DNA from: Candidatus Dadabacteria bacterium CSP1-2
GTDB lineage: Bacteria; Desulfobacterota_D; UBA1144; Nemesobacterales; CSP1-2
DNA length: 64,000 nucleotides
NCBI GenBank assembly: GCA_001443445.1
Contig: LDXN01000003.1
Location: 1-64,000, forward strand
Reading direction: 5' to 3'
Shown here one piece after another: positions 5,296 to 62,922 of the stretch; position 1 is the stretch's first letter; each line of letters starts with the position of its first letter. Below the pieces are notes generated by a model that did no database searches, was not told the origin of the DNA, and saw nothing but the letters and a program-made list of their open reading frames with translations. The position numbers and the translations under genes are program-made.

Positions 5296-5297
5296 TT

Positions 5298-5379
5298 GTA
5301 GGGGCAGACCTGTGTGTCTGTTCTGATAATGGGCGAACACAGTTCGACAATGCTCACTGCAGGCTAGGTTCGCCCCTAA
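5298..5379. repeat. Interspersed repeat family F, copy 1
   Basis: GTAGGGGCAGACCTGTGTGTCTG...GTTCGCCCCTAAC; related copy at 12105-12188. Confidence 0.75.
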
Positions 5380-7992: not shown

Positions 7993-8020
7993 GTAGAGAC
8001 GCAATTAATTGCGTCTCTAC
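7993..8020. repeat. 28-bp perfect palindrome, family G
   Basis: GTAGAGACGCAATTAATTGCGTCTCTAC; 28-bp relative at 27001-27028. Confidence 0.9.
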
Positions 8021-8069
8021 ATTAATTAAATACCATAGGAGATTGAGCAACGAGTCTTTTTAGTAACAA

Positions 8070-12015: not shown

Positions 12016-12104
12016 ATTCCTATACCCCGCATATACTGGTCTATAATAAAGTTGTTAAACTATAACATACAAAAACGTACTGCCATCATCATTAATGTTT
12101 CAAT

Positions 12105-12188
12105 GTAGGGGCAGACCCGTGTGTCTGCCCTAATATTATGGGTGAAGACAGTTGATCTAGGCCCACTGCTGGCATAGGTCCTCCCTAC
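12105..12188. repeat. Interspersed repeat family F, copy 2
   Basis: GTAGGGGCAGACCCGTGTGTCTGCCC...CCTCCCTAC. Confidence 0.75.
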
Positions 12189-12304
12189 AGTTGGTTTGAC
12201 GACTTGCAATTTTAGAATACTAGGGTTTTCTAACCCCACAAGGCGAGACAAGCCTGTCCTGGCGTGTCGAAGGAAATGTTTCGTCGTAATAATCAATACA
12301 ATAA

Positions 12305-12616
12305 ATGGGTAGCCTGCCAGTCTTGCTGGTAGGCATAACAGGCAACGAGCAAGACTCGTTGCCTACCCTAGGTAGGTTTGGATAAACACGCCCGATTTCT
12401 GATGGAAACCATTGTCATGATGTAGGAGTGCCATTTTGGCACGACTGAATCGCGGCTGGAAGCCGCTTCTACCTAATACTCGTTCTTCTGATGGAAACCT
12501 TTAGGTTTCCGCTAAGAATTGTAGAGGAAGGATTAGGTTTTCCATTTAATTTAATCGGGTAGTCTGCCAGTCTTGCTGGCAGACAGTTAAATAGCACAGA
12601 CTAGTCTGTGCCTACA
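12305..12616. repeat. Repeat cluster: family H copies plus family E copy 2 (12422-12473)
   Basis: GGGTAGCCTGCCAGTCTTGCTGGTAGGC (12305 on) and GGGTAGTCTGCCAGTCTTGCTGGCAGAC (12558 on). Confidence 0.75.
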
Positions 12617-12814: not shown

Positions 12815-13789
12815 TTGCAGCAAATAATGAAGAATGGAGAAGGGATATTTTTGAAAGAGCTTTACCTTAAAGGAAGAGACTTACTGAAAAAATCAGGTTT
12901 GGAGAACCCAGAGCTTGAGGCGGCGTTATTACTTTCTAAGGTTCTTAGAATAAATACAACTTACATTTACGCCCATCCTAAAAATTGGGTCCAATCTGAT
13001 AAGATTAAAGAGTTCGAATTACTGCTGGAAAGAAGAATAAAAAGGGAACCTATCGCTTACATTCTTGGCGAAAAAGAGTTTTACTCAAGGTCATTTATTG
13101 TAACCCCAGATGTTCTCATACCAAGGCCAGAGACTGAAATTCTATTTGAAGAGGCTTTGAAGATAATTAATAACATTCCTTACCCTACAGTCCTTGATGT
13201 TGGTACAGGTAGCGGATGTATAGCTGTTACGATTGCTTGCGAAGCCGGAAATGCGCAAAACTTTGCAACTGATATTTCTTTCGAAGCGCTTATGGTTGCA
13301 AGAGCAAATTCAGAAAGACATAAAGTATCGAAAAGAATCTCGTACGTTTGTGCAGATTTTTTAAGCTGTTTTAATGAAAATTCCTTTGATATAATTCTTT
13401 CAAATCCACCTTACATACCTGAAGGTGAATTTTATAGTCTCGAATCTAATGTAAGAGATTTTGAACCTAAAATATCACTTATTGGAGGTGGCTCGATCCT
13501 TCGGCAGGGCTCAGGACAGGCCCTTCGACTCCACCCTTCTACCGTTCGGTCTGAGCTTGTCGAAGACTCGCGGCCCACCACAGGCGAAGAAGGATTAAAC
13601 TGTATAAGGAAGATCGTTCATGAAGCAGGAAAAGTTTTGAAAAATGGAGGATGGTGTATTATTGAAGTTGGAGCTAACCAATCCGAAAAGGTATCAGAAA
13701 TTTTCAAAGGGGTTGGATTTAAAGAAGTTTCTGCAGTAAAAGATTTGGCTGGAATAGAAAGGGTGGTTAAGGGAAAATGGAAAAGATAA
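12815..13789 (+). CDS. prmC: Peptide chain release factor N5-glutamine methyltransferase, with in-frame repeat insertion
   Basis: VLDVGTGSGCIAVTIA and ILSNPPYIPEGE; C-terminal LIGG...EEGLN interrupted by about 32 repeat-derived residues. Confidence 0.95.
   Translation: MQQIMKNGEGIFLKELYLKGRDLLKKSGLENPELEAALLLSKVLRINTTYIYAHPKNWVQSDKIKEFELLLERRIKREPIAYILGEKEFYSRSFIVTPDVLIPRPETEILFEEALKIINNIPYPTVLDVGTGSGCIAVTIACEAGNAQNFATDISFEALMVARANSERHKVSKRISYVCADFLSCFNENSFDIILSNPPYIPEGEFYSLESNVRDFEPKISLIGGGSILRQGSGQALRLHPSTVRSELVEDSRPTTGEEGLNCIRKIVHEAGKVLKNGGWCIIEVGANQSEKVSEIFKGVGFKEVSAVKDLAGIERVVKGKWKR
13488..13585 (+). repeat. Family A palindromic repeat inserted in frame in prmC
   Basis: GGTGGCTCGATCCTTCGGCAGGGCTCAGGACAGGCCCTTCGAC...GAGCTTGTCGAAGACTCGCGGCCCACCACAGG. 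Confidence 0.88.
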
Positions 13790-23142: not shown

Positions 23143-23217
23143 GGCCCCTTCGTCTAGAGGTCAGGACGTTGCCCTCTCAAGGCAGAAACACGGGTTCGAG
23201 TCCCGTAGGGGCCGCCA
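23143..23217 (+). tRNA. tRNA-Glu (CTC anticodon)
   Basis: GGCCCCT/AGGGGCC acceptor stem, anticodon loop CTCTCAA, GGTTCGAGTCC T-arm, encoded CCA. Confidence 0.95.
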
Positions 23218-26719: not shown

Positions 26720-27004
26720 ATGAGACACAGAAAGCACAAAATAAAGCGTCAGCATAGCATGATAAAGGGGTTAAGAGAATTCCTAGAAGAAAATATCTCT
26801 ACTCTTGACTTCGTAGATGGGATTATCCCTGGTGAGATAAAAGTGGGAAGTGCTACTGGAGAGAACCTGATCGTGAAATACAAATACAGCACTGTCAGTG
26901 GTGCAAAGCTAATCGCAAAAAGTGGTTCTTCAATTCAAGAGGTATTTGTTGTAACAAGGTTTCCAGAAAAGCTTAAGGAAGTGATTGAAGTAATTGCAGA
27001 GTAG
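26720..27004 (+). CDS. DUF2103-like small protein
   Basis: RHRKHKIKRQHSMIKGLREFLEE...VDGIIPGEIKV. Confidence 0.75.
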   Translation: MRHRKHKIKRQHSMIKGLREFLEENISTLDFVDGIIPGEIKVGSATGENLIVKYKYSTVSGAKLIAKSGSSIQEVFVVTRFPEKLKEVIEVIAE

Positions 27005-27028
27005 AGACGCATCGCAATGCGTCTCTAC
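27001..27028. terminator. 28-bp hairpin (family G) between convergent genes; possible bidirectional terminator
   Basis: GTAGAGACGCAT-CGCA-ATGCGTCTCTAC; TAG stops of both flanking genes lie in the arms. Confidence 0.6.
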
Positions 27029-30000
27029 CTTAACTTTAAGACACCGCTTCCCAAGAGCCGAGTAACAGCTTCAATAAATTCATCATGAACATCAACTCGG
27101 CAATCCCCAAGATCAACCACAACATCACTATGACTTGTTTCCAAATGAAGATGTATTAGGGATTTTCCAGGATAGGTTTCGACTATTTTTTTTAACTTTA
27201 AAAGATTTTCTTTAACGGCGTATTCTTTTGTTAAATTTATATGAACTGTAGAACCGTTTCTCATTTCTTTAAGAGAGAATATATCACTGGCCCTTAGCCT
27301 GACTCTTTCTTCAGAAGGCTCAACCGTTCCTTTAACTACGACAGGTTCTACCTTTTCCTCTAATATAGGAAGGGACTTCCTTAGGAGATCATTAAAAATT
27401 ACGACCTCGACAGAGCCCTTCATGTCTTCAAGAACGAGGGTCCCAAAAATATTTGAGCCATTTTTAGTGTGCTTCACGTTTAGCGAACGAACCACACCAG
27501 CTATTAATACCTCACGCCTTTCCTTAATTTCAGAAAGTAGTTCAGTATCAGTGTTTGTATACCTTTTGATCTCCATTAGATATTTCGCAACAGGATGACT
27601 TGTAACATAAAACCCAAGTACATCCAACTCTGCCTTAAGTCTTTCCTTTTCATCCCATTCTTCCACGACTGGAAGAGTTGGTAGTGAAATAGAATCGCTC
27701 AAAGTAAAAAGGGCGCTTTGTCTTTCAGGGGAGCTTTTCTGTATTGCTGATGCATATGAAAGTAAGGTATCCAGTGATTCCATTAGCTGTGTTCTATTAG
27801 CTCCAAGAGAATCAAAAGCGCCGCTTTTAATAAGGCTTTCAAATGTCCTTTTGTTTATCTTTTTTGAATCTACCCTTTCACAGAAATCAAATATGGTTTT
27901 AACCCTTCCCCCTTCTTCCCTTGCTTGAATAATCGCTTCAACCGTGCCCTCGCCAATATTTTTTATAGCTGAAAGACCAAACCTGATCTTACCACGGGCT
28001 CTGGGGTAGCGATCCAGAGGTAGGGTAGTTGGGGAACCGCTTATTGCAGTAAATCCCGCCATACTTTCATTCACATCTGGAGGAAGCACCTCGATTCCCA
28101 TTTCTTTGCATTCTGCAATGCTAGCGATAACTTTATCGGCATTACCGGCCTCAACAGAAAGCAATGCAGCCATAAATTCAGCGGGATAGTGTGCCTTAAG
28201 GTAGGCAGTTTGATAGGTTATAAGCGCATATGCAGCGCTATGGCTTTTATTAAACGAATACTCAGCAAATTTTTCCATAGCATCAAAAATATCTTCAGCT
28301 TTCTTTTTACTTATCCCTTTTTTCTTTGCTCCTTCGAGAAACCTTTCTCGTTGAGCCTTCATCTCTTCGGGTTTCTTCTTTCCCATTGCACGCCTAAGAA
28401 GATCAGCTTCTCCGAGGCTATAGTCTGCAAGCACGCTTGAAGTTTTCATAATCTGTTCTTGGTAAACAAAAAGACCGTAGGTGTCTTTTAGTAGCTCCTT
28501 AAGCTCAGGTAGTGGATATTCAATCCTTCTCTGGCCATGCTTCCGTTTTATAAACTCTTCCACCATCCCGCTATCGAGCGGACCAGGGCGATAAAGAGCA
28601 AGTACTGCTATAATATCCTCAAAGCTAGAAGGTTGTAGCCTCATTAGAAGATCTTTCATACCAGAGGATTCAATCTGAAATACACCCCTTGTACGACCAC
28701 TCGATAGGAGTTTGTATACATCTTGGTCGTTGAGCGGGATCCTTTTTATATCGAAATGCAAAACTTCGTCTTTTATTGGGTCTACTTGATCTACCTGCTC
28801 TGAACTTTCTCGAACCCCTGAAGATTTATTATCGCTAATAAACTTTATTGCTTTATCTATAACCGTGAGCGTCTTTAGACCAAGAAAATCGAATTTAACA
28901 AAACCTAAATCCTCTATAGAGTTCATATCAAATTGAGTTAAGATCTCATCCTTTGAACCTTTGTATAGCGGTATATAATCTGCAAGTGGCTCGTTTGAAA
29001 TCACGATTCCTGCAGCGTGGGTGGAGGAGTGCCTAACCATATTCTCTAGTGGCCTAGCTATCTCTATCAGCTCTCTAAGGTTTGGGGATTTCTCTATGAG
29101 TTCTTTTAGCTGCGGGATTTGGGTTAAGGATTCGTCAATACTGAAAACTTTTCCCCTGAATGTTGGAATAAGTTTTGTGACTCGATCAACATCTGAATAC
29201 GGAATGCCTAGTACCCTTCCTACATCTTTTACTACCGCCTTTGCAGACATAGTTCCGAATGTGCCGATCTGGGCGACCTTATCCGCTCCGTATCTTTCTG
29301 TGACATATTTTATTACCTCATCCCTTCTGTCTGCACAGAAGTCAACATCTATATCAGGCATACTAACGCGCTCAGGGTTTAGAAACCTTTCAAAAAGAAG
29401 ATTGTACTGAATTGGGTCAAGCTCGGTGATTCCCAGTGAGTATGCGACAAGGCTTCCCGCTGCGCTACCCCTTCCCGGCCCTACTGGTATTCCTCTATCT
29501 TTAGCAAAGTTTATAAAATCTGAAACTACTAAAAAATATCCAGAAAACCCCATGCTCTTAATAGTTTCGATTTCGGTCTCAAGCCTTTCTTTATATAGAT
29601 CTGCTCTTTCACCTACTATCTCATTTTCTTTTAATCTTTTTTCAAGCCCCTCACTGGCAAGAATTGCCATGTATTCATCAAGCGCTTTCCCATCCTCAAG
29701 CTCGAACTCGGGTAGCTTGTAACTTGTGGTGAGCCCTTCGCCTTGTCGAAGGGTCGAACCACCATTAGTCTTAAATTCAAAATTGCACCTTTCTGCAACC
29801 TCAAGCGTACGCTCGATTTCCTCTGGAAAATCCTTAAGGCAGTCAAGCATCTCTCTTCGTGATTTTAGGAAATACTCATCCCCCTTGAACTTAAACCTCT
29901 TTTCATCTATTACTGTTGTTCCAGTTTGAATGCAGAGGAGGATATCGTGCGGCTTTGAATCTTCTCTCGTTAAATAATGACAGTCGTTTGTTGCCACAAC

Positions 30001-30594
30001 CTTAATCCCAAGCCTATTTCCAATCTCTTTGATCTTTTGATTTACAGCCTCTTGCTCAGGAAGCTTATTTGCCTGAATCTCGAGATAGTATCTGTCACCA
30101 AATATCTCCTTATATTTGGCTGCTGTTCGGAGGGCTCCTTGTAGGTCGTTGCTAAGAAGATATTTACAAAACTCACCGTTTAGACAACCGCTTAACACCA
30201 TAAGGCCCTCATGGTGAATATCTAAAAGCTCATAGTCTATCCTGGGTCTCCTATAGAACCCCTCAAAGTAGGCTTTAGTAAGCAGCCTGGAGAGGTTTTT
30301 ATACCCTTCTTGACTCATAGAAAGAAGGATCAAGTGGTGGTTTTTGTCCTCAGGCGATTTATCATGTCGTGATGAGGGAGCTACATAAACCTCACATCCA
30401 ATAATTGGTTTTATGCCTGCTTTTTTAGCCTCCTTATAGAACTCCACAGCACCAAATATGTTTCCATGATCGGTGAGGGCAACGGCCGTCATACCGTATT
30501 CCTTCGCCTTTTGGAAAAGCTCATCAAACTTGATTGCGCCGTCAAGGAGTGAATATTGAGAATGGAGATGAAGGTGAACAAAATCTTTATTCAT
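27025..30594 (-). CDS. dnaE: DNA polymerase III alpha subunit, with in-frame repeat insertion
   Basis: [19 protein letters not shown] PHP start, [39 protein letters not shown]. Confidence 0.97.
   Translation of the reverse strand: [1189 protein letters not shown]
29726..29765 (-). repeat. Family A palindromic repeat inserted in frame in dnaE
   Basis: GTGGTGAGCCCTTCGCCTTGTCGAAGGGTCGAACCACC; translated [13 protein letters not shown]. Confidence 0.88.
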
Positions 30595-32443: not shown

Positions 32444-34873
32444 ATGAGGTTCTTATTTAAAGAAGAGTATGCCGCCCAGCTTGCTCCTATAATAATAATC
32501 CCCCTTATCGCCATTGCGATGGCAATAGGTACTATATCGTTTGCGAATGCCCTCGGGTGGCTTGGAAAGCCCTTTCCAGGGTTTTTTTACTATAAAAATC
32601 TCGTTGTGTCATTCTATCAGAGAAGCGCCTGGATGGGAGGGAATAAGGGACCAAGAGCATATGACCTAATCACAGAGGTCGAAGGTAAACCCGTCAAAAC
32701 AGCCGATGAATTTAGAGAGGTATTCAATTCAAATAAAAATAAAGGATCCATTACCTACACAGTTAATCGGGATGGAAAAGCCTCAAACTTCGCTGTAGAT
32801 ATAAAGGACCTTTCCATAGAGGATTTTTTCTTTGCCTTTCTACTCCCTTTTCTGCTAGGAATGTTTTTTCTCGTAGCCGGCGGGCTTGTGTACTTTGCAA
32901 AATCAAATAAGGCCACACTTGTAAACTTCTTTATGTGCCTTCTTATCGCCCTTTCCTATATGACAATGTTCGATTCCAACACGACTTACAAATTCTCTCA
33001 GTTCTGGCTCATATACCCGCTATTTGGCGCAATCTCAGCACATCTTTTTCTTTTATTTCCTGAAGAGCGGGATCTGGTAAAGAGAAACCGCTGGATAAGA
33101 TACCTTCCTTATATCCCTGCACTTCTCTTGATACTTTTTAGATACCTTAGCGAGAATAATCCTTCACTTTCCATCCTTTTTTCAAAGCTTTCTCTCTTAT
33201 ACATGGGTGGCATATTTGTACTAGATCTCAGTCTATTAATCGTGACGTACGCAAATACAAAAGAAGGCGTAATAAAACAAAGGGCAAAAATAGTTGCTTT
33301 CGGTCTTGTGGTTGCATCTCTTATACCTGTTACTTGGAGCGCCCTTAATGCCCTATGGCGCCCGGTAGTAGGGTTCGATTATGCAATGGGATTAGCTATA
33401 GTTTTTCCTGCCCTTGTAGGATATGCAGCCACAAAAAGAAGATTCTTTGATATAGATCTGGTTATAAAAAAGAGCATAAGCTATGGCGCCCTAAGTGGGG
33501 CGCTTGTAATCCTTTATTTGATTATAGTCACGATTGTTAGCTTGCTTACCCAAACCCTATTTTCACTACACCGCTCCCCTATAGAACCGGTGATTTCAAC
33601 ACTAGTTATAGTCGTTGCATTTGATCCTATAAGAAGACATATCCAACACCTGATTGACAGGTTTTTCTATAGAGACCAATACAATCTTCAGCAAGGCTTT
33701 TTGGAACTTGGCCGTGAAATCGGCGGAGAGGGTTTTGACATAGATGAAATTGGAGAGCTTGTTGTGAGAAGATTTTGCGAGCTCCTTAGACTCAACAGAG
33801 CTTATATATTCCTGAAAGAGGGGGCAGAAAGGTTTACGCTTAAGTATGGGGAACCAAATCCCAAAGATTTTATCCCTATAAAGTTTCACAGAGGTACCAA
33901 AGGAAAACTCTCAAAAGGTCGTACGGTTGAGGTTGACGAGGTTATTTCCAACTTAGAGCTAGATACAAGTGAGTCGGAGAAGCTAAAAAACATTGGAGTT
34001 AGATACCTTATTCCAATGTTCACAAAAAGCGGTGTTTTAGGGATTATTGCCCTCAGTGAAAAGCTATCAAAGCTTCCTCTTTCAAGGGATGAAATAAAAC
34101 TACTTGAGGGAGTAGCACATCAGACAGCAATAAGCATTGAAAACCTAAGGCTATACGAAGAAAAATCCCGTGATGAAAGGCTTGCAACACGCGGGCAGGT
34201 TGCAAGCATGATAATCCATGAGATAAAAAATCCTCTTGGAATTATTCGAGTCTCCTCTGGTACACTCAAAAAGAAATTTGAAAAGGTGGACGATCAAGAG
34301 GGAAAAGAGCTTGCAACATTTATAGAAGAAGAAGTACTAAGGATGGATACCACGGCTAGGAAGTTTCTTTCATATGTAAGGCCTCAAGAACCAAGTCTTG
34401 AATGGGTGAATATTAACGAGGTGATCAGAAAGGCTTTAAAGACCCTATCCACTGAGCTCGAATCCTTGAAAGTCGAGACAAGGCTTAAATCTAACCTTGA
34501 TGAGATTGAAGCTGATGCAGACCAGCTTTATCAAACATTTATAAATCTTATATTAAACGCACGGGACGCCTCCCCATTTGGTGGAAGATTGATTATAAGG
34601 ACAAATGAAAGAGACGGCGTGTGTGAGGTAGCTATAGCAGATACTGGCAAGGGTATTGAAAAGGGTGTAGTAGAGAGTATATTTAAACCATTCTATTCAG
34701 GGAAAAGGGGCGGTATCGGTCTTGGGCTTACTATAGCACACCAGATAGTTGAGAATCACGGGGGAAAAATCAGGGTTAAAAGTACCGAGGGACGCGGAAC
34801 CGTTTTTCTCATAATCCTTCCCAAACGAAGAAAGGAGGCAAAGGATAAATGGAAGAAGTTATTTCTTTCCTAA
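32444..34873 (+). CDS. Membrane sensor histidine kinase (PDZ-like loop, multispan TM, GAF, HisKA, HATPase)
   Basis: ITEVEGKPVKTADEF PDZ-like segment, MIIHEIKNPLGIIR H-box, ADTGKGIEKGVVESIFKPFYSGKRGGIGLGLTIAHQIV. Confidence 0.9.
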   Translation: MRFLFKEEYAAQLAPIIIIPLIAIAMAIGTISFANALGWLGKPFPGFFYYKNLVVSFYQRSAWMGGNKGPRAYDLITEVEGKPVKTADEFREVFNSNKNKGSITYTVNRDGKASNFAVDIKDLSIEDFFFAFLLPFLLGMFFLVAGGLVYFAKSNKATLVNFFMCLLIALSYMTMFDSNTTYKFSQFWLIYPLFGAISAHLFLLFPEERDLVKRNRWIRYLPYIPALLLILFRYLSENNPSLSILFSKLSLLYMGGIFVLDLSLLIVTYANTKEGVIKQRAKIVAFGLVVASLIPVTWSALNALWRPVVGFDYAMGLAIVFPALVGYAATKRRFFDIDLVIKKSISYGALSGALVILYLIIVTIVSLLTQTLFSLHRSPIEPVISTLVIVVAFDPIRRHIQHLIDRFFYRDQYNLQQGFLELGREIGGEGFDIDEIGELVVRRFCELLRLNRAYIFLKEGAERFTLKYGEPNPKDFIPIKFHRGTKGKLSKGRTVEVDEVISNLELDTSESEKLKNIGVRYLIPMFTKSGVLGIIALSEKLSKLPLSRDEIKLLEGVAHQTAISIENLRLYEEKSRDERLATRGQVASMIIHEIKNPLGIIRVSSGTLKKKFEKVDDQEGKELATFIEEEVLRMDTTARKFLSYVRPQEPSLEWVNINEVIRKALKTLSTELESLKVETRLKSNLDEIEADADQLYQTFINLILNARDASPFGGRLIIRTNERDGVCEVAIADTGKGIEKGVVESIFKPFYSGKRGGIGLGLTIAHQIVENHGGKIRVKSTEGRGTVFLIILPKRRKEAKDKWKKLFLS

Positions 34874-36234
34874 CAAATATTTACGTAACAAATCCTGAAC
34901 TTGTCTTAATAGGCGGCGGCAGCGGCGTAATATTATTTTCCGCACTCCTTTTCTTCCTAAGGGGAAAGAAAACCAAACATAGACTAGAAGGAGTAGAAAC
35001 AGCTCATATTTCCCATGTCGAAAACGCTTCTGTCGAATCCTTACATAACATTGAAGAAGAGATAATTGACGAAGAAGTATTAGAACCCGAAGAGGGTATG
35101 AGCGAGGAATTAACAGAAGAGGAAGCTCAAGAGGATGTCGAGATAGACGTACCTGAAGTTGAGCCCGACGTGCTTGAGGAAGGCATTAGAGCAAGAGAAG
35201 ACTTTCGTGAGCCCTTCGACCCTGCTCAGGACAGGCTTCAGTCGAACGATGAAACCGCGGTCCATGAAAAGAAAATTGAAGAGGATCCAGAACAGACAGA
35301 GGAGGGGCTTTTCTCAAGGCTTCGTGCTGGGCTTTCCAAAACCCAGGCCGGGCTTCTAGGAAAACTCGACGAAGTGCTAAGGCATAGAAAGGAGATTAAT
35401 GATAATCTCTGGGACGATTTTGAGGAGACATTAGTTACAGCAGATTTAGGTGTGGGAACCACGATGAATTTAAGAAACGAGATTGAGAATAAGCTCACAA
35501 AGAAGTCACTCCGCGACCCCATGCTTATAAAGGGCGCTCTTAGAGAGGAAATCCTACGCGTACTAAAAAATGCAGAAGCTACTATTCCGGCGCTTAATGC
35601 AAAACCGTTTGTAATAATGGTTGCAGGTGTAAACGGTGTAGGAAAAACAACAACAATAGGAAAATTGGCATACAAATTCAGGAAAGAGGGAAAAGGCGTT
35701 ATGGTTGCCGCTGCCGACACATTCAGAGCAGCAGCCGTAGAGCAGCTTGAAATCTGGGCAAATCGCGTGGGGAGTGATTTCTTGAAAGGACAGAGCGGTG
35801 CGGACCCTTCAGCGGTAGCATTTGACGCAGTCAGAGCAGCTAAGGCTCGCGGAACAGATGTCCTCATAATTGACACAGCAGGAAGGCTTCATACAAAAGC
35901 TAATCTTATGGAGGAGCTTAAAAAGGTAAGAAGGGTTATAGGACGTGAGCTTGAAGGTGCTCCACATGAGACTCTTCTTATACTTGATGCTACAACTGGT
36001 CAAAATGCCATTCAGCAGGCGAAGAAGTTTAAAGAGGCGGTAGAGGTCACAGGGATAGTACTTACAAAACTCGATGGAACCGCTAAGGGCGGGGTTATTG
36101 TAGCGATTGCAGACGAGTTAAAGATCCCAGTAAAATTCATTGGAATAGGCGAAAGATTAGGAGATCTAAGGGAATTTAAAGCAGAGGAATTTGTCGAGGC
36201 ACTATTCCTTACAGGCAAAGAAACCCTACATTAA
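34849..36234 (+). CDS. ftsY: Signal recognition particle receptor FtsY, with repeat insertion in the acidic N-domain
   Basis: VAGVNGVGKTTTIGKLAYKF, AADTFRAAAVEQLEIW, DTAGRLHTKANLMEEL. Confidence 0.97.
   Translation: MEEVISFLTNIYVTNPELVLIGGGSGVILFSALLFFLRGKKTKHRLEGVETAHISHVENASVESLHNIEEEIIDEEVLEPEEGMSEELTEEEAQEDVEIDVPEVEPDVLEEGIRAREDFREPFDPAQDRLQSNDETAVHEKKIEEDPEQTEEGLFSRLRAGLSKTQAGLLGKLDEVLRHRKEINDNLWDDFEETLVTADLGVGTTMNLRNEIENKLTKKSLRDPMLIKGALREEILRVLKNAEATIPALNAKPFVIMVAGVNGVGKTTTIGKLAYKFRKEGKGVMVAAADTFRAAAVEQLEIWANRVGSDFLKGQSGADPSAVAFDAVRAAKARGTDVLIIDTAGRLHTKANLMEELKKVRRVIGRELEGAPHETLLILDATTGQNAIQQAKKFKEAVEVTGIVLTKLDGTAKGGVIVAIADELKIPVKFIGIGERLGDLREFKAEEFVEALFLTGKETLH
35206..35250 (+). repeat. 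Family A repeat in frame in ftsY
   Basis: CGTGAGCCCTTCGACCCTGCTCAGGACAGGCTTCAGTCGAACGA; translated EPFDPAQDRLQSND. Confidence 0.85.
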
Positions 36235-36238
36235 CTAA

Positions 36239-36487
36239 TTTCGAAATGCAGATTGTAGACGGCGGATTAAAAAATTTATTTAGCAACAAATGAAACTACA
36301 AATCCCAAATTACAAGCACCAAATCATAAACAATCACCAAGCTCTAAATTCCAAGTTCCAAGCGTTTGAATTTGGATTTTTGGATTTGTTTGGAATTTGT
36401 GATTTGGTTATTGGAGCTTAAGTTTTTGTGGCTAATTAAACATCTTTTATTCCGCAACCCGAATTCCCAAATCCGCAATCTCAAACT
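36239..36487. repeat. Intergenic family C-like repeats plus AT-rich AAATTCCAA/TTGGAATTT inverted repeats
   Basis: CAAATCCCAAATTACAAGCACCAAATC ... GATTTGTTTGGAATTTGTGATTTGG; CCCGAATTCCCAAATCCGCAATC. Confidence 0.6.
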
Positions 36488-39828: not shown

Positions 39829-40321
39829 TATAGCTGCGACTTTCCAGTCGCAGATTTTTATAATGGAAATTTATCACGCCTGCCCTGAGCCTGGTCCGCG
39901 ATTTAATCGGGGAAGGGGAGACCCTCCTACCCAAGGGGCTCGTAACCTGTCATACCCGAGCGCAGTTACCGGGTATCCATACTTTTTTTGGATTCCCAAT
40001 AAAGCTTGTACCCACATGCCTTTAATGGGTAACGTTTGGGAATGACATTGCAAAATGGATTCCCGCTAAAAATTGTATCCGCATGCTTTAAGAGGGTAAC
40101 ACGCGAGAATAACTACTACTGTCATGCCGAAATCGGTAATCGGACATCCATGCCATATTCCCTACTCCGAGGTTAGAAGACCTCGGATGTCAAGATGTAA
40201 ATATTTGAATATAATTATCCTATAGCTGCGACTTCACAGTCGCCGATTTGTATACAGAATTTATCGCGGCAGGGCCTGTCCTGAGTGGTTCGATTAAACT
40301 CACCACAGGCTCTGTCGAAGG
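39829..40321. repeat. Repeat-rich intergenic cluster: two family J copies (39829-39901, 40221-40280) and family A (40273-40321)
   Basis: TATAGCTGCGACTTTCCAGTCGCAGATTTTTATA vs TATAGCTGCGACTTCACAGTCGCCGATTTGTATA; CCTGTCCTGAGTGGTTCGATTAAACTCACCACAGGCTCTGTCGAAGG. Confidence 0.75.
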
Positions 40322-40387
40322 GATGCCGCTCCTACGACACTCTTATATGGCAGCAGAAAAAAAACATGGTAAATTAGTAATTCACCT

Positions 40388-42273: not shown

Positions 42274-43155
42274 CTAAACCCATCCGAGTTTTTCCAAAAG
42301 AGTGGTTTTTACACTCTTAAATTGTTGCGTAATAGGTAGTTCGAATTGGTCTACCAGTGCAATCGCAATAGCGCCAATTAAAGAATTTGTAAAAAAGCCG
42401 CCCTCGGAAGATTTCAGGCTATCTAAGCCAAATCGACCTTCTTTAACCTCAATCCCCATTTCTTTAGCAAGCTCAATGACGACACCCCTAATAACCCCTG
42501 GAAGAATCCCGCATTCAAGTGATGGAGTACAAAGAGTTTCTCTTTCGAACCAGAATAAATTACTAGCACTAGCCTCACATAACTCCTCTTTATCATTGAG
42601 AAATATAGCTTCGTCAAACCCCAGTTTCCTAGCCTCTCTCCTAGCAAGTACATTTTCCAAGTAGTTTAAAGATTTGAGTTGAAGTATAGGTGATGTTGAA
42701 CTACGTCTAAAAGATGAAACATGAGCTCTAACAGGTTCCAAAGTATGTTTATATTCCCTCACAATTACTAGAAGTGAATGCCCTTCTGGATTATCGTAGA
42801 AAATAGTAGTCCCATGGGAAAGAAGGCAGATTTTAACATAAGCATCAGGTATTTGGGAGTCTAATATGGCATTCTCAACGCCCTCTTTGACAGCTTTACC
42901 TCCAGGAAATGGAATCCCTAAAACCCCTGCCCCCTTTTTCATCCGCTCAAGATGTTTACTCAAAAAAACTGGAGGACGAGCTTTCCACCTAAAGGTCTCG
43001 AACAAGCCTTCACCATAGAACAAAGACCTTAAAGGAAATGCTTCTTTAAATGGCTCCCCGTCTATAAATATGTACTCTTTCATTCCATCCCCGCTTATCG
43101 TGTTTCGTGATTTCGTTCTGAGCAGTTCTACAAGCCTGTCCTGAGCAAGGTCCAA
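42274..43155 (-). CDS. pabC: Aminodeoxychorismate lyase / class IV aminotransferase; true start probably at MKEYIFIDG, downstream of repeat
   Basis: LFYGEGLFETFRWKA, KSLNYLENVLARREARKLGFDEAIFLN; first 24 residues derive from family A/D repeats. Confidence 0.88.
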   Translation of the reverse strand: MDLAQDRLVELLRTKSRNTISGDGMKEYIFIDGEPFKEAFPLRSLFYGEGLFETFRWKARPPVFLSKHLERMKKGAGVLGIPFPGGKAVKEGVENAILDSQIPDAYVKICLLSHGTTIFYDNPEGHSLLVIVREYKHTLEPVRAHVSSFRRSSTSPILQLKSLNYLENVLARREARKLGFDEAIFLNDKEELCEASASNLFWFERETLCTPSLECGILPGVIRGVVIELAKEMGIEVKEGRFGLDSLKSSEGGFFTNSLIGAIAIALVDQFELPITQQFKSVKTTLLEKLGWV

Positions 43156-43183
43156 GGGCTCACTACAGGCTTAGTCGAACGAT
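43092..43183. repeat. Family D and A repeats at the pabB-pabC junction
   Basis: TATCGTGTTTCGTGATTTCG; TACAAGCCTGTCCTGAGCAAGGTCCAAGGGCTCACTACAGGCTTAGTCGAACG. Confidence 0.75.
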
Positions 43184-43205: not shown

Positions 43206-44513
43206 CTACTCGACTATTCCTAGAGCCTTTTGAATGGCTATAGCTTTTACAAGCGTCTCATCAAACTCCTTTTCAGGGTCTGAGTCCCAAACAATCCCGC
43301 CTCCTACCCAGAATGTTCCTATACCATCCTTGGCAAACAAAATCCTAATTGCCACACTCAACGTAAAATCCCCGTTTGGGTAGAAAATACCTATAGCGCC
43401 ACAGTATGGACCTCTTACATGTGGCTCAAGCTCATCAATAAGCTCCACGGCCCGGCGTTTAGGCGCACCAGTTACAGAACCAGGAGGGAAGGTGCTTTTA
43501 ATAATATCTCCTATTCTAATCTCATCCTTCAGGTACCCCTCAACCTCTGATACCATTTGATGAAGCGTCGCATAGGATTCTATGTTAAAGAGATTGTTAA
43601 CCTTTACCGTACCGTATTTGCAGACCCTTCCAAGGTCGTTTCGCATAAGATCAACTATCATTAGATTCTCTGCCCTTTCCTTCTGGCTGCTTATTAGCTC
43701 TGCTTTCAATATGGCGTCCTCTTCAACTGAAAATCCCTTTTTTCTAGTCCCTTTTATTGGTTTTGTTACAATTTTTCTCCCTGTTTTTCTCAAAAAAAGC
43801 TCCATCGAGCCGCTTATAAGTTGAAACTGTCCAAAATCTATATAGCATCCATATGGTACTGGCTGCACATCAAAGAGATTGAGAAAATAAAAAATAGGTG
43901 GAGAGAGAATTGGTGTAGTGAACCGCTGTGAGAGATTTACCTGATAAATATCACCACTAGCAATGTACTCTTTCGCAAACCTGATCATATTTAGGTATTC
44001 CATCTTGGTCATATTTGAGTACATCTCGATTCTCATTAGTGGATTATAAGCCTTTAAAGTTTGGTAATGGGTTGGAAGAATATTCTTCAAGTCTTCCAAG
44101 CTTCCAGAAATCACATCCCTTTCTTTAAAAAATTGTAAATATATATCAGGATATGTTTCCCCTTCCTTTTTCCAAATAGGGATAAATCCCTCCTCTGTAA
44201 ATCTAGAATATTCATAACTGACGTATCCAACAGCTATATATCCCTCACTTAAATAACCCTCTAAGACCGATAATGGGTCACGATTAAAGTTCAACTTTCT
44301 ATCCTGCAAACTAACTGATACGCCTTGTCCAAGCGACGAGAGAGAAAAAACAGGATCTCTAAAGAAAACAAAAGAGCTCTCTTCCTGTGGTGAGCCTGGT
44401 CGAACCATATCGGGCAGCCAGCCTCCGCCGGAATCTAAAAAAAGCGCAGAACATGGTGAATTTGATTCTAAGCTCATGGGTAATTTAGTGATGCGGAAAT
44501 AAACTTGATCCAT
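43206..44513 (-). CDS. pabB: Aminodeoxychorismate synthase component I
   Basis: IASGDIYQVNLSQRF, KPIKGTRKKG, DLMRNDLGRVCKYGTV, FPPGSVTGAPKRRAVELI. Confidence 0.95.
   Translation of the reverse strand: MDQVYFRITKLPMSLESNSPCSALFLDSGGGWLPDMVRPGSPQEESSFVFFRDPVFSLSSLGQGVSVSLQDRKLNFNRDPLSVLEGYLSEGYIAVGYVSYEYSRFTEEGFIPIWKKEGETYPDIYLQFFKERDVISGSLEDLKNILPTHYQTLKAYNPLMRIEMYSNMTKMEYLNMIRFAKEYIASGDIYQVNLSQRFTTPILSPPIFYFLNLFDVQPVPYGCYIDFGQFQLISGSMELFLRKTGRKIVTKPIKGTRKKGFSVEEDAILKAELISSQKERAENLMIVDLMRNDLGRVCKYGTVKVNNLFNIESYATLHQMVSEVEGYLKDEIRIGDIIKSTFPPGSVTGAPKRRAVELIDELEPHVRGPYCGAIGIFYPNGDFTLSVAIRILFAKDGIGTFWVGGGIVWDSDPEKEFDETLVKAIAIQKALGIVE
44384..44406 (-). repeat. Family A repeat core inside pabB
   Basis: CCTGTGGTGAGCCTGGTCGAACC; translated MVRPGSPQE. 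Confidence 0.65.
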
Positions 44514-51512: not shown

Positions 51513-51585
51513 TCAATTGATTGCGGATTTGGGATTTCAGATTGCGGAATATCTTTTAAATCCGCAATCTACAATCTGCACTTCC
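51513..51585. repeat. Family C repeat (intergenic)
   Basis: GATTGCGGATTTGGGATTTCAGATTGCGGAATATCTTTTAAATCCGCAATCTACAATC. Confidence 0.7.
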
Positions 51586-60214: not shown

Positions 60215-62788
60215 ATGAAAGAAGCGTATAATCCACAAGAGATTGAGAGAAAATGGCAGTATGTTTGGAGTGAGAAAAGGGTCTATGAAGTAACTGAGGA
60301 CCATAACGAGGAGAAATATTATGTCCTTGAGATGTTCCCATACCCCTCTGGCAGAATCCATATGGGGCATGTAAGAAACTATACAATTGGAGATGTTATA
60401 GCGCGGTATAAAAGGACATTGGGGTTTAATGTCCTCCATCCTATAGGATGGGATGCCTTTGGGCTTCCCGCAGAAAACGCTGCTATTGAGCGTGGGGTTC
60501 ATCCTGCAAAGTGGACTTATGAAAATATTGCTCAAATGAAAGCGCAACTAAAGAGGCTTGGTTTTAGTTACGACTGGAATAGGGAGATTACTACCTCTGA
60601 CCCTAATTATTATAAATGGGAGCAGATGGCTTTTACACGGATGTTTGATTGCGGACTAGCTTACAAAAGGTCTTCAGTTGTCAATTGGTGCCCTTCATGT
60701 GAAACGGTTTTGGCAAACGAACAGGTAGTAGTATCTGGTGCTGTATTACCCGAACCGCAGTCTGGTTCGGGAGGTAATAAACAGTTTGCATCAGATGGAA
60801 ATAAAGAGGCTGCAAGGTGTTGGAGGTGTCAATCCGAGGTTGAGTTGAGAGAGTTAGAGGGCTGGTTTTTTAAAATTACGGATTATGCAGAGCAACTCCT
60901 TGATGGATGCGAAAGGCTTAAAGATGGCTGGCCAGAAAGGGTTCTTACGATGCAAAAGAACTGGATAGGAAAAAGCACTGGCGCTGAAATTGATTTTCCC
61001 CTTGAGGAAACTATAGAGGGCGTGAGAAGTTTAAGGATTTTTACAACCCGCCCTGATACGGTTTTTGGAGTTACCTTTATGTGCATTACACCGGAAAATC
61101 CAATTTCGGAGAGGATCGTAAAAGGAAAGCCACAAGAAAAAGAAGCAGTTCAGTTCATCCAAAGGATTAAAAGGCAAAGCAACATTGAAAGAGTAGGCGA
61201 AGGTGTAAAAAAGGAAGGTGTTTTTACAGGTGCCTACTGCGTAAACCCCTTTAGCGAGGAGCGTATACCGATTTACATAGCAAATTTTGTGCTTATTTCG
61301 TATGGCACTGGGGTGATTATGTGTGTTCCAGCACATGACCAAAGGGACTTTGAGTTTGCAAAGGAATACGGCTTGCCCATAAAGGTCGTGATTCAGCCTG
61401 AAGGTGATGATGTAAATCCAGATGATATGAAATGTGCTTATGAAGATGTGGGTATCATGGTAAATTCAGGTGAATATTCTGGAACTCCCTCTGAGATCGG
61501 CAAACAAAAGATCATCGAGTATGTGGAGACTAAAGGGTTTGGTCGAAGGCAAATAAACTATAGGCTTAGAGACTGGGGTATATCGCGTCAAAGATACTGG
61601 GGGGCACCTATTCCTATAATTTATTGCGATAGGTGCGGAACCTTAGCGGTTCCTGACAATTACCTACCAGTAGAGCTTCCGATGGATATTGAATTTACAG
61701 GAAAGGGAGGCTCTCCGCTTGCAAAGATAGAGAAATTTGTAAATACAAAGTGCCATAAGTGCGGTGGTGATGCAAGAAGAGAAACCGACACGATGGATAC
61801 ATTTGTAGAGTCATCTTGGTATTTCCTTAGATACACCTCTCCGGATTTTGAAAATGGTATGTTAGATGGTGCAAGGGGTAAATATTGGCTTCCTGTAGAC
61901 CAGTATATAGGTGGTATAGAGCACGCAATTTTGCATCTGCTTTATGCCAGATTTTATACAAAGGTATTGAGAGACCTTGGGATGTGCAATCTTGACGAAC
62001 CCTTCTTAAATCTCCTAACTCAGGGGATGGTAATTAAAGACGGTGCTAAGATGTCAAAGTCTCTCGGAAACATTGTTGACCCTGACGATATAATAGCAAA
62101 ATATGGAGCAGATACTGTTCGTATATTTATGCTTTTTGCCTCGCCAGTTGAGAGGGATCTCGACTGGAGCGATGAGGGTATAGAGGGTTCATACAGATTT
62201 CTAAACCGGGTGTGGCGTTTTGCCTACGATTTCGGAATTCGGAATTCGGAATTCGGAATTAGAGAATCTTTTAATCCGCAATCCGCAATCCGCAATCCGC
62301 AATCAAAAGGTCTTCTTATTAAGGTACATAAGATGATTAAAAAGGTAACGGAAGACTTAGAAAGATTTCAATTCAATACAGGGGTCGCAGCTATCATGGA
62401 GCTTCTAAACGCTGTATCTAGGTTTCAATCCAATGGCAATGATGAAAAAGCTGTACTCAGGGAGGCGATTGAAACTATTGTTCGTCTTCTTTATCCCTTC
62501 GCCCCGCATATAGCTGAAGAGCTATGGGAAGCCCTTGGCTATAAAGAAACCCTCGTTGATAAGCCTTGGATTGAGTGGGATAGAGAGATTGTAGGGAGCG
62601 CTGCGGTCATCGTAGTCCTCCAGGTGAATGGAAAGGTACGAAGTCAAGTTTTCATGGACCCCGATACAACAGAAGAGGAGATGAAACAGGCCGCTTTTTC
62701 AGATGAAAGAGTAAAAAGCTATATTTCTGGAAAAGAAATCAAAAAGGTTATTGTCGTTCCAAAAAGGCTTGTAAACATTGTTGTATAG
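60215..62788 (+). CDS. leuS: Leucyl-tRNA synthetase with two in-frame repeat insertions
   Basis: [56 protein letters not shown]. Confidence 0.97.
60749..60813 (+). repeat. Family B repeat in leuS (zinc-ribbon region)
   Basis: CCCGAACCGCAGTCTGGTTCGGGAGGTAATAAACAGTTTGCATCAGATGGAAATAAAGAG. Confidence 0.8.
62231..62304 (+). repeat. Family C heptamer arrays in leuS: (CGGAATT)x4 and (AATCCGC)x4
   Basis: 62233-62260 and 62273-62300, translated [25 protein letters not shown]. Confidence 0.95.
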
Positions 62789-62858: not shown

Positions 62859-62922
62859 GTTCGACAACCTCACCTCGAACGGCTTGGTTTAAATACCGTC
62901 CGCCCTGAGCATGTCGAAGGGA
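62859..62922. repeat. Family A repeat downstream of leuS
   Basis: TTCGACAACCTCACCTCGAACGG...CCGTCCGCCCTGAGCATGTCGAAGGG. Confidence 0.65.

Follow-up and report, generated by a model that had tools for sequence, protein, structure and literature searches.

The window analysed here is the whole stretch of 64,000 nucleotides (G000:C3:1-64000), taken from a 2.48-Mb assembly in 89 contigs that is probably metagenome-derived. Its prmC gene, for the release factor glutamine methyltransferase (12827-13789, plus strand), was recognized by its open reading frame and its NCBIfam match (TIGR03534, E = 1.6e-80); the start codon is uncertain and may lie at 12815, 12827 or 12839. The best PrmC profile match (TIGR03534) breaks off at an in-frame insert of 96 nt, equivalent to 4 x 24 nt, at approximately 13487-13582 (plus strand); the 32 inserted residues, (G)GSILRQGSGQALRLHPSTVRSELVEDSRPTT(G), separate LIG(G) from EEGLN, a GG(T/C) repeat leaving the edges uncertain by about 3 nt, and the inserted DNA includes the core TCCTTCGGCAGGGCTCAGGACAGG together with the reverse-oriented TTCGACAAGCTCA. 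The dnaE gene for DNA polymerase III alpha (27025-30594, minus strand; NCBIfam NF004226, E = 0) carries an in-frame insert of 39 nt at 29722-29760 (minus strand), whose 13 residues, GSTLRQGEGLTTS, align with solved DnaE structures at the gap ahead of their Y(K/R)(L/I)P motif. In the order, 28 further PrmC proteins lack the prmC insert, and 28 DnaE relatives lack the dnaE insert; the sister species (G001) has both inserts in frame, with 31 of 32 and 13 of 13 aligned residues identical. A preliminary description of this DNA had noted about 32 extra residues between LIGG and EEGLN of PrmC and an extra peptide in DnaE; the orthologue alignments, in which the insertion edges are sharp, bear out both, and identical residues at the identical site were not seen in unrelated lineages. 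The identical inserts in the separately assembled sister species also argue against an assembly artefact. Between the two species, the prmC genes (12827-13789) are far more divergent 5' of the insert, and from the insert to the gene end their DNA is near-identical; a recombination or conversion breakpoint near the insert is possible.

The preliminary description had named only these two in-gene copies within the window and had missed two more, in ftsY and pabB. In ftsY, encoding the SRP docking protein (34849-36234, plus strand; TIGR00064, E = 3e-105), a nested insert at 35200-35249 (plus strand) consists of an outer repeat, GACTTTCGTGAG..TCAGTCGAACGA, whose loop holds the 24-nt core CCCTTCGACCCTGCTCAGGACAGG; the insert reads DFREPFDPAQDRLQSND, sits in the variable acidic N-terminal part of the protein, and is common to the sister species. 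The pabB gene for aminodeoxychorismate synthase component I (43206-44477, minus strand; TIGR00553, E = 1.8e-98) has 24 inserted nucleotides, ATGGTTCGACCAGGCTCACCACAG, at 44385-44408 (minus strand); their eight residues, MVRPGSPQ, correspond to an eight-residue gap in the comparison genomes G006 and G002 and are present in the sister species. Copies between genes, placed earlier at 40273-40321 and 62859-62922, are indeed present: the former is a composite at 40273-40322 (minus strand), with minus-strand CCCTTCGACAGAGCCTGTGGTGAGTTTAATCGAACCACTCAGGACAGGCC within a GTAGGAGCGGCA..TGCCGCGA hairpin, and the latter (62859-62922, minus strand) contains CCCTTCGACATGCTCAGGG and lies between two genes. 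A further core copy at 43140-43158 (minus strand), at the 5' end of the gene at 42274-43155, is probably upstream of the true start. Empty GTAG-type hairpins with AGT-C-TTGCT loops occur at 12302-12368 (plus strand); elsewhere in the genome, this hairpin class takes the 24-nt unit in its loop.

Other repeats accompany these copies in the window. A separate palindromic family, GTAGAGACGC..GCGTCTCTAC, is intergenic (7993-8025 and 27001-27033); units of the ATCCGCAATC type occur in both orientations (36442-36480, 51519-51584 and 62266-62306), with one copy within the gene at 60215-62788; and the repeat TGTAGGGGCAGACCxGTGTGTCTG has two intergenic copies (5297-5328 and 12104-12135). Rfam gave no match at the repeats; its sole match, a tRNA at 23143-23214, contains CCCTTCGTC, which was rejected as a core copy since it is a chance match.

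The survey was extended to 1.86 Mb (75%) of the genome, with genes called by a simple hexamer model and named after NCBIfam matches where available; the NrnA-like, dipeptidase, glycosyltransferase and cyclase names given below were judged from sequence only. The census of intergenic and in-gene copies that the preliminary description had suggested yielded 83 exact occurrences of TTCGAC-N2..4-GCTCA in these stretches (63 intergenic, 20 in genes) vs. 2 for a reversed control; in the whole genome, CCCTTCGAC-NNN-GCTCAGG with at most two mismatches was found 70 times, its reversed pattern 0 times. The abundance of the repeat is far above chance, and its in-gene copies are depleted relative to intergenic copies, yet clearly present. 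The word GCTCACCACA, which closes several in-gene inserts, has 11 occurrences, all within genes. Reverse-oriented matches at two ORF starts (C15:4355 and C15:11332) were set aside since they are probably upstream of the true start, and a match with two mismatches at C64:6472 was left out of the count. The genomes G000 to G006, in which G002-G006 are further comparison genomes that include members of the same family, contain 70, 74, 170, 0, 92, 130 and 68 core copies (CCCTTCGAC-NNN-GCTCAGG), respectively; G003, with 0 copies, and four other genera of the family, with 68-170, provide a natural contrast for a mobilising gene.

Identical orientation and frame had been proposed for the in-gene copies; this holds for prmC and dnaE but is not a rule, since five of the six frames are used genome-wide, and the only frame that is never used within genes is the one carrying an invariant TGA. 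Five of six frames are usually stop-free in the core and in the GCTCACCAC class, and four of six in the CGTC-like class, compared to a baseline of 0.585 open per frame for random 24-mers of equal GC. The core unit alone is a weak hairpin (z = +0.8), so that the earlier term "palindromic" fits only in part; z is -0.8 for the prmC insert, -2.1 for the CGTC-like class and -3.7 for the dnaE insert, which together with its flanks folds as a hairpin of -10.5 kcal/mol as DNA.

At least 20 genes in the 1.86 Mb carry related in-frame inserts (including ileS twice, pheT, uvrA, recJ, tilS, rimO, mtaB, pabB and anmK); they are absent from orthologues across the order, and inserts are shared with the sister species. 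Insert sizes were obtained by comparing the candidate genes with G001, G006 and G002, in alignments that are in part approximate; 18 of the 24 inserts are exact multiples of eight residues (binomial p = 3.5e-12 vs. 1/8). Eight residues were found in the NrnA-like phosphoesterase, pabB, a dipeptidase-like protein, uvrA, ileS (8 and 8), sulfite reductase, C1:39082, egtB (C-terminal) and a membrane glycosyltransferase-like protein; 16 in C13:45217, recJ (measured against G002, as G006 has 13 other residues there), fdrA, C44:11584 and an MsbA-like transporter; 24 in mtaB and anmK; and 32 in prmC. The inserts of dnaE, a glcD-like gene and rimO (13 each), tilS (29), pheT (35) and the cyclase gene (~37) depart from this series and point to further steps, probably of +15 nt. 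The tally excludes inserts whose edges are less certain, namely those of FtsY and the sigma factor and the second and third of PheT.

The same step of 24 nt is found between genes. Among GTAG-type hairpins of the form NNNNN-AGT-[x]-TTGCT-NNNNN with complementary arms, x measures 1 nt in 18 matches, where the loop is empty, and 25 nt in 17, where it is filled; other lengths have mostly 0-5 matches, and in one hairpin x is 49 nt, with a repeat-derived unit within a unit. The 25-nt loops have different sequences on a common plan (CCCTTCGACTGCGCTCAGGACAGGC, CGTCTCGCCTGAGCTCGACGCAGGC, TCCCTCGACCGAACTCGGGACAGGC). Since intergenic hairpin loops show the step as well, selection within genes is not its only source; adding eight whole codons leaves the frame unshifted, and frame neutrality is a property of the element itself. 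Nesting is also found within genes: in FtsY, the MsbA-like transporter and C13:45217, the core stands within the loop of a class that elsewhere reads DVREPQSNDE, and the nested reading becomes D(V/F)REP-FDxAQDR(P/L)-QSND. In pheT, the insert of the sister species contains 96 inner nucleotides that are missing from the G000 insert, and reciprocally, C44:11584 of G000 has 24 nt inside a unit that lacks them in the sister species. Of all the features of the inserts, the 24-nt step and the nesting carry the most information; both had been overlooked in the earlier reading.

Comparison of the two sister species shows that in-frame inserts both persist and turn over. The compared sites were chosen for holding the motif, and amount to ~99 kb of aligned DNA; for intergenic DNA, a raw indel list drawn from the long alignments carried too much noise, and only indels of at least 10 nt with clean flanks were used instead. 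All eight clean in-gene indels measure 24 nt (six), 48 nt or 96 nt, whereas 4 of 19 clean intergenic indels are multiples of 24 (Fisher p = 2e-4), and intergenic sizes also include 25, 30, 31, 39 and 50 nt; divisibility by 3 is found in 8 of 8 in-gene vs. 9 of 20 intergenic indels (p = 0.01). Sulfite reductase provides the cleanest pair, with the empty site AAAGAAGAAGATGAAAC in the sister species and the filled site AAAGAAGAA[GACGTTCGTGAGCCTCAGTCGAAC]GATGAAAC in G000, a difference of 24 nt. Besides this gene, fdrA (48 nt) and pheT (105 nt) have sites filled in G000 and empty in the sister species; conversely, two extra 24-nt units in the cyclase gene and 96 nt in pheT are present in the sister species and missing in G000. 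Indels in both directions indicate that turnover continued after the species split. One empty/filled pair is compatible with a 2-nt GA target duplication; such a duplication is not consistent across pairs. The pheT gene (G000:C32:4649-7273) carries inserts at three positions, two of which differ in the sister species.

Over 161 insert codons common to both species, dN/dS is 0.39 in the inserts vs. 0.25 in their flanks; constraint on the inserts is weak, with a borderline difference between nonsynonymous and synonymous change (p = 0.053). These values fit translated, tolerated peptides without proving translation. Synonymous divergence is 0.066 in the inserts vs. 0.174 in the flanks (p = 0.004), which may reflect DNA-level constraint or conversion among copies.

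The repeat extends beyond the host lineage. The exact 23-mer CGTTCGTGAGCCTCAGTCGAACG, from one class of the repeat, was found in 18 GTDB contigs, from Deltaproteobacteria, Anaerolineales and other Chloroflexota, Leptolyngbyaceae (Cyanobacteria) and Candidatus Dadabacteria; the copy in Candidatus Dadabacteria occupies a locus matching the G000 copy at C1:38499, by which the uncultivated host probably belongs to Dadabacteria. In a deltaproteobacterium, the 23-mer lies inside a topA fragment, within the topoisomerase domain; in one Anaerolineales genome, two B12-binding radical-SAM proteins (L231:5568-6998 and L235:4744-6225) carry it at an interdomain linker, in two different frames. The core was present in only 34 of 2.9 million viral contigs. 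The preliminary description had proposed an independent protein-invading family that is active in this lineage; activity since the sister species separated is evident from indels in both directions, but a repeat with a cross-phylum 23-mer is not confined to the lineage.

The inserts are probably explained by a superfamily of short, non-autonomous mobile repeats with a unit of 24 nt. Such units, with a conserved middle, TTCGAC-NNN-GCTCA, and variable, often complementary arms (CCC/GGG, GTGG/CCAC, CG/CG), would enter the loops of older hairpin repeats and build nested arrays in increments of 24 nt, and would also enter plain sites within genes; an eight-codon unit, usually stop-free in five of six frames, would usually add eight residues and leave the gene unbroken, and selection would retain the inserts at tolerated sites, for example linkers and termini. 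The peptides are presumably translated, and their sites structurally tolerant. It is barely conceivable that the inserts are ancestral functional protein segments that resemble the repeats by accident: inserts are common to the two species in 12 of the regions checked, as ancestry would predict, yet all other relatives are without inserts at those sites, identical motifs recur across unrelated proteins and in intergenic DNA, and several inserts occur in one sister species and not the other. That the inserts remain untranslated, through ribosome hopping like that of mitochondrial byps or through splicing, is very improbable; the stable hairpin that the dnaE insert can form with its flanks would suit bypassing, but no frameshift or in-frame stop results from in-gene copies, and the uniform divisibility by 3 of clean in-gene indels is demanded by translation, not by skipping.

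The mobile 24-nt repeat would need an activity in trans for its copying, conceivably an unrecognised transposase, or template switching at hairpins; no mobilising gene was found. One alternative is that the inserts are GTAG-type REPs copied by the REP-associated tyrosine transposases (RAYT/Y1_Tnp) of their own genome, which has seven Y1_Tnp matches and GTAG-type hairpins that hold the 24-nt unit in their loops; core-rich members of the family also mostly have many Y1_Tnp genes. This origin is nevertheless unlikely: the core has no GTAG tag, the flanks that were read around Y1 genes show inverted repeats of those genes' own or nothing recognisable, only one core copy lies near a Y1 gene (~280 nt downstream) and otherwise none is adjacent, and G019 has 25 core copies with no Y1_Tnp match, and G008 61 copies with one. 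It is quite possible, if short of probable, that no transposase is involved, and that replication slippage, template switching between hairpins, or gene conversion among copies produced the inserts. Slippage or template switching would account for insertion into hairpin loops and for mosaic make-up, and existing loops are indeed preferred and the arms mosaic; two new 24-nt inserts (C28 and C8) adjoin or sit inside a similar unit, and the reduced synonymous divergence of the inserts is as expected from conversion or DNA-level constraint. Against these processes, new copies appear at plain gene sites without an earlier repeat, as in the 24 nt of sulfite reductase whose site is empty in the sister species, and slippage alone does not readily give units that differ in sequence yet keep exactly to a 24-nt step. 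Neither a trans-acting enzyme, whether RAYT or unrecognised, nor pure replication errors is strongly supported.

In-frame palindromic inserts are already known as a kind, from the palindromic elements of Rickettsia (RPEs) and from intragenic REPs (PMC3733652). RPEs are short repeats that occur between genes and in frame within genes that are probably still functional (PMC3733652, its references 13 and 14); in-gene repeats also hit R. conorii in dnaE and uvrB (PMC3733652). The parallel with RPEs, drawn in the preliminary description, is apt as a way of working, since the orthologue alignments demonstrate in-frame insertion into genes that stay open; membership could not be shown, and the present repeat is set apart from RPEs as described in that paper by its 24-nt unit, the TTCGAC-NNN-GCTCA middle, loop nesting and use of five frames. 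GTAG-REPs are small dispersed hairpins of many phyla, mostly intergenic and in several species intragenic (Di Nocera et al., 2013, PMC3733652), in genes that notably include uvrA, tRNA synthetases, and replication or repair genes (PMC3733652). In contrast to these, the core and the GCTCACCAC class are without the GTAG tag, and the unit does not border the Y1_Tnp/RAYT genes whose flanks were read; the GTAG-type hairpins of G000 are a separate class that hosts the 24-nt insert. Two RAYT-like Y1 transposase genes of G000 (G000:C48:15990-16670 and C32:3593-4546) have long inverted repeats (AAAGGGGACGCAACCC / GGGTTGCGTCCCCTTT; GGGGTCAGGTCTCAACATT) and resemble the TIR-flanked type described in PMC3733652.

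CGTC-REPs, which like GTAG-REPs also lie within genes in some species, combine a loop of 4-5 nt with a stem of 8-9 bp, nearly always beginning with complementary AT (PMC3733652). The class GACGTTCGTGAGCCTCAGTCGAACGA resembles them in ending in CGTC on one strand, and a dedicated transposase is known for neither; however, this end is present only in the GACGTTCG..CGAACGA class, and the predicted fold of the CGTC-like class has a stem that starts with CG and contains a bulge, with a 3-nt loop. The MITEs and RU elements of enterobacteria (100-170 nt) are likewise non-autonomous and can bring open frames into genes (PMC2229807, PMC2759123), as the present repeats do; in contrast to them, the repeats described here showed no parent insertion sequence in a non-systematic look, no terminal repeats and no target duplication that recurs from pair to pair; their arms are often complementary. 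No paper turned up when the literature was searched for the repeat by its literal sequence, and the fixed 24-base step, which extends outside genes, and the loop nesting appear not to have been described before, judged mainly against PMC3733652.

A wider reading of the mobile 24-nt repeat, possible but doubtful, is that of a cross-phylum mobile DNA whose transposition quantum is exactly eight codons, nearly stop-free; it would spread through genes in the form of peptide modules that are easily tolerated, nest in eight-residue steps and have a length fitted to coding hosts. In-gene palindromic repeats have hitherto been seen as rare leftovers of random insertion; a length fixed at eight codons, outside genes as well, would explain how such repeats enter replication, translation and repair genes without breakage. 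The nucleotide-level presence/absence pairs and the cross-phylum 23-mer make REP-like movement and adaptation to coding hosts testable. For genome annotation, the repeat accounts for the LRQ(G/S)SGQA, PFDxAQDR and DVREPQSND peptides that recur in unrelated proteins; for the proteins themselves, an eight-codon repeat offers an easy path to new peptide segments.
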